Of a stretch of DNA of 64,000 nucleotides, positions 33,771 through 35,690 are shown one piece after another. Source of the stretch: Candidatus Methanomethylophilaceae archaeon (lineage in GTDB: Archaea > Thermoplasmatota > Thermoplasmata > Methanomassiliicoccales > Methanomethylophilaceae). Below the pieces are notes generated by a model. That model searched no databases. It had not been told where the DNA came from and saw only the letters and a list, made by a program, of their open reading frames with translations. The stretch spans positions 62,001-126,000 of the forward strand of contig CALULN010000003.1 of NCBI GenBank assembly GCA_944321505.1, written 5' to 3'. Every line of letters begins with the position of its first letter. Position 1 is the stretch's first letter. The position numbers and the translations under genes were made by a program.

Positions 33771-33824
33771 GGTATCGCGGACGGGCTTCGGAAGCGATTT
33801 ATCGCCGGCCCGGGATGGCGGTGC

Positions 33825-34742
33825 ATGGAGAGCTCGGAGGACAGGCGGCTGAGGGGGTTCCTGGCGGAGCCTCCGCTGGGGATCCGCGGTCTGACCGCCG
33901 CGGAGCTTGAGGTGTTCGCCGCAGCGGTCACCCATCCCAGCCTGTCGGCCGAGGAGGCTGACCGGGGGAGGCACGTGCCGGACTACCAGCGCCTGGAGTT
34001 CCTGGGGGATTCGGTGATCAAGCATGCGGTCTGCGATTCTCTGTGCAGGTCGTACGACGATTCTGAGGACATCAACCGCCGCAAGGAGGACCTCATCGAG
34101 AACGCGAACCTGGCCCGGGTCCTGGAGCGGATAGGGGGCCATTCGGTCATCCGCATCAGCAGGAAGAACCTGGCCAACATGAATCCCGTCGGGGTGTCGC
34201 ACATACATGCGGACGTCCTCGAAGCCCTATGCGGTGCGGTGTTCGCCGTCCGCGGGCAGGAGGTGGCGCAGACACTGGCATGTAAGCTGCTGGGTCTGGA
34301 GGTCGGACACGATTTCGGTGCGGATGTCCCGTCTGCGCCCGCGGTGCACGTGTCGGAGCGTTTCACCGCCGGCCCGGTGTCTGACCGGTGCTCCGCGCTC
34401 GTAGCGGCAGCGGCTGCCGGCCCGGATTCGGACCACAGGCTCTGTAGAGCCAGATTGGCCATGATCGGGGATTCCGTCCTGGAGCTGACGGTGTCGTCCG
34501 CGGTCTTCGGGCACGGAGGCTTGGACGAGGGGGGCATGACATCGTTCCGCCAGACGGTCATGGAGTCGGATCGGCTGGGGGACTGGGTCTCCGAGGCGGA
34601 GCCCGCGCTGTTCCCCGACGGGACCTCACCCCGCGTCGCGGCTGAGACCTACAAGGCGGTGCTTGGCGCACTGGCCGTCTGCCACGGCTTCGGGAGGGCG
34701 TCGGATGCGGCATCGGAAGCCGTCCCTCTCCCAATTATATAG
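33825..34742 (+). CDS. Tandem RNase III-domain protein without dsRBD
   Basis: Two RNase III folds in one 305-residue chain. Domain 1 (about 25-155) has the signature YQRLEFLGDSVIK and HADVLEALCGAVF, with all four expected metal-site acids (E58, D62, D130, E133). Domain 2 (about 180-290) has RLAMIGDSVLELTV and VAAETYKAVLGALAV, in which the acids are A212, D216, E274 and K277, so its site is probably dead. No dsRNA-binding domain follows. The chain could fold as an intramolecular pseudo-dimer with one active site. RNase III is uncommon in archaea. The stop TAG is part of the TATA box of the next operon. Confidence 0.82.
   Translation: MESSEDRRLRGFLAEPPLGIRGLTAAELEVFAAAVTHPSLSAEEADRGRHVPDYQRLEFLGDSVIKHAVCDSLCRSYDDSEDINRRKEDLIENANLARVLERIGGHSVIRISRKNLANMNPVGVSHIHADVLEALCGAVFAVRGQEVAQTLACKLLGLEVGHDFGADVPSAPAVHVSERFTAGPVSDRCSALVAAAAAGPDSDHRLCRARLAMIGDSVLELTVSSAVFGHGGLDEGGMTSFRQTVMESDRLGDWVSEAEPALFPDGTSPRVAAETYKAVLGALAVCHGFGRASDAASEAVPLPII
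34733..34742 (+). promoter_or_regulatory. TATA box for the e2b2-rbcL-deoA operon
   Basis: AATTATATAG lies 22-31 bases before the e2b2 ATG, which predicts a leaderless mRNA. The final TAG of the element is the stop codon of the upstream tandem RNase III gene. Confidence 0.55.
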
Positions 34743-34763: not shown

Positions 34764-35690
34764 ATGGACGTCTCATCCACGGCCGATGCGATAAGGAGCA
34801 TGGAGATTAGGGGTGCAGGGCGGATCGCCAGAGCCGGCGCCTCAGCGCTGAGGGAGCTGGCGATGTCCTACTCCGGCGATGCCGAGGGATTCGCGGCGGA
34901 GCTGGATGCGGCGAAGAGGACGCTCCTCGACTCCCGTCCCACGGCAGTATCTCTGTGGAACGGCGTGCATGCCGTTCTCAGAGGAGTCCGCGGATGCGGG
35001 GACGCGGATGCCATGAGGGAGAGGGTGATCGCCAACGCCGATGCCTTCATAGCACGTTCGGAGGCGGCGGTCAGGGAGATCTCCCGCATAGGCGCCAAGC
35101 GCATACAGGGCGGCGACGTCATAGTCACCCACTGCAACAGCAGCGCCGCAGTCGGGGTGCTGAAAGAGGCGCACGCCCAGGGGAAGAGGTTCAAGGTGTA
35201 CGCCACCGAGTCCCGCCCGTGGCGCCAGGGTCTGATCACGGCCAACGAGCTGGCGGACGCCGGCATAGACGTGACGCTGATCATAGACAGCGCCGTCAGA
35301 TCCGTCATGAAGCGTGCCGACAAGGTCTTCGTGGGGGCCGACACGGTCACGTCCCACGGGGCGCTGGTGAACAAGGTGGGGACATCCCAGGTGGCGCTGG
35401 CCGCCAGGGAGGCGAGGGTGCAGTTCTACGTCTGCGCCGAGACCTACAAGTTCTCGCCCATGACCCTCTTCGGCGACATGGTCACCATCGAGGAGCGCTC
35501 CAGGGAAGAGGTGGTGAAGGACGGGGAGGTGCGTCCGGAGGTCAAGATATTCAATCCGGTGTTTGACAGCACGCCGGCGGCGTACATAGACGCCATAATC
35601 ACGGAGGCGGGGATGATATCCCCCGGCTCCGTCTATCAGGTGATGGTAGAGAGCCTCGGAGAGGAGGCATTCAGGGTAGAGGGAGATTGA
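34764..35690 (+). CDS. e2b2: Ribose-1,5-bisphosphate isomerase
   Basis: Converts ribose-1,5-bisphosphate to ribulose-1,5-bisphosphate, 308 residues, eIF2B-related. Catalytic C124 lies in THCNSSAAVG, D193 in FVGADTVTSHGALVNKVGT, and ATESRPWRQG binds phosphate. It is the middle step of the archaeal AMP pathway and is followed, one base apart, by form III RubisCO and then AMP phosphorylase. It is in the same reading frame as the upstream RNase III gene, separated by TAG and seven codons. Confidence 0.93.
   Translation: MDVSSTADAIRSMEIRGAGRIARAGASALRELAMSYSGDAEGFAAELDAAKRTLLDSRPTAVSLWNGVHAVLRGVRGCGDADAMRERVIANADAFIARSEAAVREISRIGAKRIQGGDVIVTHCNSSAAVGVLKEAHAQGKRFKVYATESRPWRQGLITANELADAGIDVTLIIDSAVRSVMKRADKVFVGADTVTSHGALVNKVGTSQVALAAREARVQFYVCAETYKFSPMTLFGDMVTIEERSREEVVKDGEVRPEVKIFNPVFDSTPAAYIDAIITEAGMISPGSVYQVMVESLGEEAFRVEGD

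Follow-up and report, generated by a model that had tools for sequence, protein, structure and literature searches.

An archaeal protein with two fused RNase III domains, the second predicted to be catalytically dead

A gene of a Candidatus Methanomethylophilaceae archaeon encodes two RNase III domains in a single chain of 305 amino acids, and the second of these domains is predicted to have lost its cutting centre while keeping its fold. The reading we favour, with a probability somewhat above one half (about 0.57), is that the protein is a self-contained intramolecular RNase III pseudo-dimer with one cutting centre, in which the dead half acts as the partner and the product is a nick. More tentatively, and at a little less than even odds, we propose that it may be an archaeal one-chain RNA nickase of 305 aa, whose two-domain chain evolved independently, had one half turned off and cuts structured RNA on one defined strand. 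A fused protein 52% identical to this one, with the same four letters at the dead site, is encoded by a second genome of the same genus, referred to here as G117. A review from 2015 described the RNase III domain pair in one chain as unique to eukaryotes and noted that RNase III was acquired by some mesophilic Euryarchaeota (PMC4571572), and no description of tandem RNase III in archaea was found in the open-licence papers covered by our literature search.

Domain layout and predicted structure

In the window, by which we mean the whole 64,000-nt stretch of DNA that was analysed, the open reading frame runs for 305 codons from an ATG at 33825 to a TAG stop codon at 34740–34742 (Table 1). The initial annotation had placed two RNase III domains in this chain, which is borne out by the reading frame together with Pfam searches of both the whole protein and its C half. 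The full 305-aa protein matches PF14622 (2.2e-25) over two stretches, and PF14622 and PF00636 each match twice, once per half; the isolated C half is itself matched by PF14622 (9.4e-8) and PF00636 (1.1e-6), and is 33% identical to the single-domain relative L066 over 115 residues (2e-13, in that one comparison). Given the significant Pfam matches of the C half alone and the match to L066, the resemblance of this half to RNase III is not a matter of chance. The RNase III superfamily endonuclease domain is thus present in both halves according to PF14622, PF00636 and the fold search.

Table 1 Features of the tandem RNase III locus in the window.
Feature	Position	Strand	Basis or remark
Divergent conserved gene, function unassigned, 503 aa	32239..33750	-	No Pfam or NCBIfam match; throughout the family, conserved beside the RNase III gene
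Candidate TATA-like box GCGATTTATCG, some 25 nt ahead of the ATG	33794..33804	+	Near-identical in G117; putative promoter element
Tandem-domain RNase III gene, 305 aa, without dsRBD	33825..34742	+	ORF and Pfam
First (N-terminal) RNase III domain, about residues 7-151; predicted to be catalytic	33843..34277	+	Profile search of relatives, Pfam, pLDDT about 95
N-domain acids E58 and D62, in RLEFLGD	33996..34010	+	104-domain alignment
N-domain acids D130 and E133, in ADVLEA	34212..34223	+	104-domain alignment
Interdomain linker, residues 161-203, poorly conserved	34305..34433	+	35% identity to G117; low pLDDT at 170-182
Second (C-terminal) RNase III domain, about residues 204-294; conserved, predicted to be catalytically dead	34434..34706	+	Pfam, profile search, model, identity to G117
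C-domain A212 (in place of E) and D216 (retained), within RLAMIGD	34458..34472	+	104-domain alignment; G117 letters identical
C-domain E274 (in place of D) and K277 (in place of E, corresponding to E. coli E117K)	34644..34655	+	104-domain alignment; G117 letters identical
AATTATATAG, gene end, possible TATA-like box of the downstream isomerase	34733..34742	+	TTATATAA at the same place in G117; putative promoter element
Ribose-1,5-bisphosphate isomerase (TIGR00511), 22-nt gap after the RNase III gene	34764..35690	+	

No domain other than RNase III was found by Pfam in the 305 aa, whether helicase, PAZ, platform or dsRBD. The lack of a dsRBD, noted initially from the sequence, was confirmed with the dsRBD model PF00035, which has no match in this protein although it does match the RNase III of another family in the same order. 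The score against the NCBIfam RNaseIII equivalog was 93.8 bits, below the cut-off of 166.25.

Structure prediction agreed with the earlier suggestion that the C-terminal region folds as RNase III. The C half alone, modelled with AlphaFold2 from an alignment with 49 RNase III domains whose loci are nearly all bacterial, adopted an RNase III fold with a mean pLDDT of 85.5, and its best PDB matches were RNase III structures (3o2r, Z 14.2, 117 residues, 2.6 Å); as an alignment of RNase III sequences leans towards that fold, this model is support rather than proof. The alignment used for the full-length model contained no homologues for the C half, and pLDDT in this model was about 95 in the N domain, 55–77 over most of the C half and low at residues 170–182. 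Residues 1–296 of the full-length model align with Drosha (5b16, Z 16.9, 262 residues, 4.8 Å). Over this same span the model also aligns with Arabidopsis DCL3 (Z 16.5, 251 residues) and, among mammalian Dicer structures, with 7zpi (Z 15.9, 246 residues). Foldseek TMq values were 0.48–0.59 for most Drosha and Dicer chains, compared with 0.37–0.43 for one-domain RNase III chains, and were lower for Giardia Dicer (0.39–0.45). Mitoribosomal RNase III-like proteins were also among the fold matches. The alignment with Drosha and Dicer lends support to the proposal that the two domains pack as an RNase III dimer, and the packing is predicted to be that of an RNase III (pseudo-)dimer, with an N:C interface that is uncertain because of the pLDDT of the C half.

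Catalytic sites and mechanism

Site positions were taken from an alignment of 104 RNase III domains of the order. Of the four superfamily acids (E41, D45, D114 and E117 in E. coli numbering), all are present in the N domain, as had first been noticed from the sequence, and the C domain reads A/D/E/K, which likewise agrees with the two lost acids (E to A, E to K) and the single D-to-E change reported at the outset. The equivalent of E. coli E38 is gone from both halves (Q55 and A209) and the N domain is without the G of the EG motif. The C domain is shortened: the H-x-S-x-x-x-E segment is missing, and so is most of the stretch that loops between the two acid-bearing helices. A complementary loss, with the EG motif missing from the N domain and the acids from the C domain, was ruled out since the E65-equivalent is retained in both halves (E81 and E235).

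Loss of E41 and a change at D114 are not sufficient proof of a dead site, because single-domain relatives of family f5, in the same order, read A/D/E/E at the four positions and Mini-III is similar. Mini-III (class 4) is an RNase III without dsRBD, a single-domain homodimer which reads A/D/T/E and keeps the E117-equivalent. Judging from the sequence, the decisive change for a dead C site is the exchange of glutamate for lysine at K277. In E. coli rnc70 the equivalent change (E117K) abolishes cleavage and leaves dsRNA binding intact (PMC8708148), and the Aquifex E110K protein, solved with dsRNA, was among the fold-search matches (1rc7, 1yyo). E117K and E110K, equivalent to K277 as glutamate-to-lysine changes, are variants of a homodimer that come from the laboratory or from crystallography, whereas K277 is natural and affects one half only. 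The C domain is predicted to be catalytically dead. The activity of the N domain itself is not certain, given its long branch (about 1.5) and the loss of the E38-equivalent and of the G of the EG motif.

In the mechanism that we favour, the N and C domains would pack together in the manner of RIIIDa and RIIIDb of Drosha and Dicer, with the dead half providing both the dimer partner and a surface that grips dsRNA. The two centres of RNase III each cut one strand, so that with one centre dead a nick is expected: the live half would hydrolyse one strand and leave a nick, where two live centres would make a double cut staggered by two nucleotides. Single-strand nicking, dsRNA as the substrate and the choice of substrate are what we infer from this arrangement. 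Artificial heterodimers of the E. coli enzyme were reportedly the subject of work by Conrad et al. in 2002, as its title indicates.

The strongest competitor, which we nonetheless consider unlikely, is that two chains join through their N domains into an ordinary homodimer, whose two live centres make double-stranded cuts, the C domain being an accessory dsRNA-binding or regulatory module in place of a dsRBD. The N domain has all that this needs, among it E81, the E65-equivalent, and the ball phenylalanine of LEFLGD (F59), and the single-domain relatives without dsRBD presumably act as N:N dimers. The C domain, however, keeps the RNase III fold and is conserved around its former site, on the face that serves for dimerisation and RNA in the family; the full-length model places it as the predicted partner, and a tethered partner would be present at high local concentration.

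A clearly smaller chance is given to the possibility that the protein is a pseudoenzyme throughout, which binds RNA or serves as a scaffold without cleaving, like mL44 and mL57 of the mitoribosome. Such a role would fit the dead C domain, the missing E38-equivalent of the N domain, the branch of this domain, which in the tree is longer than in most single genes, and the mitoribosomal proteins among the fold matches. It fits poorly with the N domains of both fused homologues, in which the four essential acids are kept and RLEFLGD and E133 are invariant.

Comparison with G117 also bears on whether the C-terminal half could be a decaying duplicate without function, as its two lost acids, its partly missing loops and its long branch (2.2) might suggest. 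Identity between the two proteins is 56% in the N domain, 54% in the C domain and 35% in the linker. Among codons with an unchanged residue, fourfold-degenerate third positions differ at 24/44 sites in the N domain and 21/30 in the C domain, and the 54% identity of the C domain, despite differences at most such sites, argues that the dead half is under selection. The four former site positions of this domain are identical in the two genomes, and its most conserved stretches, RLAxxGDSVLELT and E[TS][YF]KA[VL]LGAL, lie around the former site. No frameshift has occurred, and the spacing to the next gene is the same 22 nt. A decaying duplicate is accordingly disfavoured and has very little probability in our view; the comparison indicates that selection maintains the dead domain about as strongly as the live one. 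That the fused frame is an artefact of assembly or frameshift is refuted in practice: both genomes are multi-contig, with only a partial 23S in each and no 16S match in that of the window, but two independent assemblies with proteins 52% identical show the same in-frame fusion, stop position and neighbours.

Distribution, origin and genomic neighbourhood

A PF14622 match was found in 93/147 genomes of the order, and in 79/389 genomes of a sample drawn evenly across the phylum. Only the window's genome and G117, both of one genus, have two matches in one frame among these 147 and 389 genomes; in each of the four remaining genomes of the genus there is a single gene, with one domain. The homologue search called for initially, on how widely the fusion occurs in Thermoplasmatota, thus recovered the fusion but not a wide spread of it, and the sole fused homologue carries the same dead RNase III domain and not an unrelated C-terminal domain. 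The window protein as a lone query had no match in genome contigs. A profile search of genome contigs for RNase III loci gave no case of two domains in one frame among the 80 matches listed, which are nearly all bacterial by record title, and the fused form was absent from viral contigs. The single-domain genes of the family encode about 160 aa without dsRBD, and several complete genomes of the family have no RNase III.

Departures from the four acids were also observed elsewhere in the order. Two genomes each have two separate, strongly diverged RNase III-like genes (L084/L085 in G043, L086/L087 in G041); in each pair one gene has E41 changed to V/I and D45 to R/K with D114 and E117 kept, and the other has E41 changed to A and D114 to P/V. 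Each pair may be a heterodimer split over two genes, both of its RNase III chains being damaged. Most of the f5 single-domain RNase III-like proteins (L090-L097, L113, L114, L116, L117) are A/D/E/E-like, with E41 lost, and several genomes have two or more copies. The D114-equivalent alone is lost (G or S), with three acids kept, in L066-L070 (G104-G108), L103 (G118), L074 (G056) and L106 (G060).

In the tree, both halves form one clade of 38 rows (100/97 support) with every single-domain gene of the family except separate diverged paralogues. The N domains of the two fused proteins group as sisters, as do their C domains (100/100 each), which places the fusion before the split of the two species. 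When the N and C domains were constrained as one clade, the log-likelihood was 0.36 above that of the free tree and the constraint was not rejected (p-AU 0.517), and local tandem duplication is therefore compatible with the data, though unproven; the exact placement of the C pair is unsure because of its long branch. An origin of the C domain from a separate paralogue of the relatives was rejected, as the C domain grouped with no second gene of the order.

Most single-domain genes of the family lie at the same genomic place, with the divergent conserved gene on one side and the isomerase and type III RuBisCO genes on the other, and the fused gene of G117 has the same neighbours, the same stop position (TAA in place of TAG) and the same spacing. 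This shared place, together with the single clade that holds both halves, points to local duplication of a single-domain gene as the most likely origin of the fusion. A single-domain, dsRBD-less RNase III gene, presumably encoding a homodimer, would have been duplicated in tandem and then fused; the N copy would have retained the four metal-binding acids, and the C copy would have kept its fold but, with the changes E to A, D to E and E to K, no longer its catalysis.

Between 34733 and 34764 the RNase III and isomerase genes of the window share a frame, separated by a single stop codon (TAG; TAA in G117). Pyrrolysine read-through of the TAG into the isomerase was ruled out, since G117 has TAA and no PylS reached the cut-off in the window's genome. 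The end of the RNase III gene (TTATATAG here, TTATATAA in G117) may double as the TATA box of the isomerase gene. With this candidate box so close ahead of it, the isomerase gene may have a promoter of its own, and an operon of the two genes is not taken as a clue to function.

An essential role in pre-rRNA processing was rejected from a comparison of pre-23S flanks (L214-L229) in other genomes of the family, complete or near-complete, since that of the window has no 16S match and a partial 23S. Reading of the printed structures revealed the same long stem with a bulge-helix-bulge-like element in four genomes with RNase III and four without, so that RNase III status has no effect on the predicted 23S processing stem. 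These like stems, and the complete genomes of the family that lack RNase III, make an essential role in the first 23S cut unlikely.

Comparison with known systems and significance

The closest comparison is with the family's own single-domain RNase III proteins (e.g. L004, L009 and L050), which belong to the same clade, usually lie in the same neighbourhood and share the layout of the N-terminal domain and the lack of a dsRBD, but consist of one domain of about 160 aa, and most of them keep all four acids. Bacterial class 1 RNase III, a homodimer, has a C-terminal dsRBD and the window protein has none, a feature it shares with Mini-III; unlike Mini-III it has two domains, and its dead domain has lost the glutamate that Mini-III keeps. 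Drosha and Dicer (RNase III classes 2 and 3) also have two RNase III domains per chain, and the full-length model aligns with them over both domains in the same order, with moderate confidence in the C half. In Drosha and Dicer, however, both domains are catalytic, whereas here the C domain reads A/D/E/K, and those enzymes carry helicase, PAZ, dsRBD or platform domains that are missing here. According to the tree, the fusion arose separately from Drosha and Dicer, within the archaeal family.

In its presumed way of working, the window protein resembles the RNase III heterodimers of the trypanosome editing complexes, for which single-strand cleavage was proposed because they have one live subunit (PMC12936278). 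The pairs KREN1/KREPB8, KREN2/KREPB7 and KREN3/KREPB6 each join a catalytic with a dead RNase III, a likeness of operation for which no kinship is claimed. They are, however, separate polypeptides with zinc finger and RAM motifs, while the pair described here is one chain, in which a Pfam scan found no domain corresponding to the kinetoplastid zinc finger or RAM motifs.

What appears new is an RNase III chain with the paired-domain layout of Dicer and Drosha, which arose separately, is reduced to two domains and has one of them predicted to be off. It would be a small, separate replicate of a homodimeric nuclease becoming intramolecular and asymmetric, in a family where the single-domain precursor is still found in relatives, usually at the same genomic place. 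If nicking is true, the protein would serve as a minimal strand-specific tool to cut structured RNA, and it would test, in a natural setting, what a second RNase III site is needed for.
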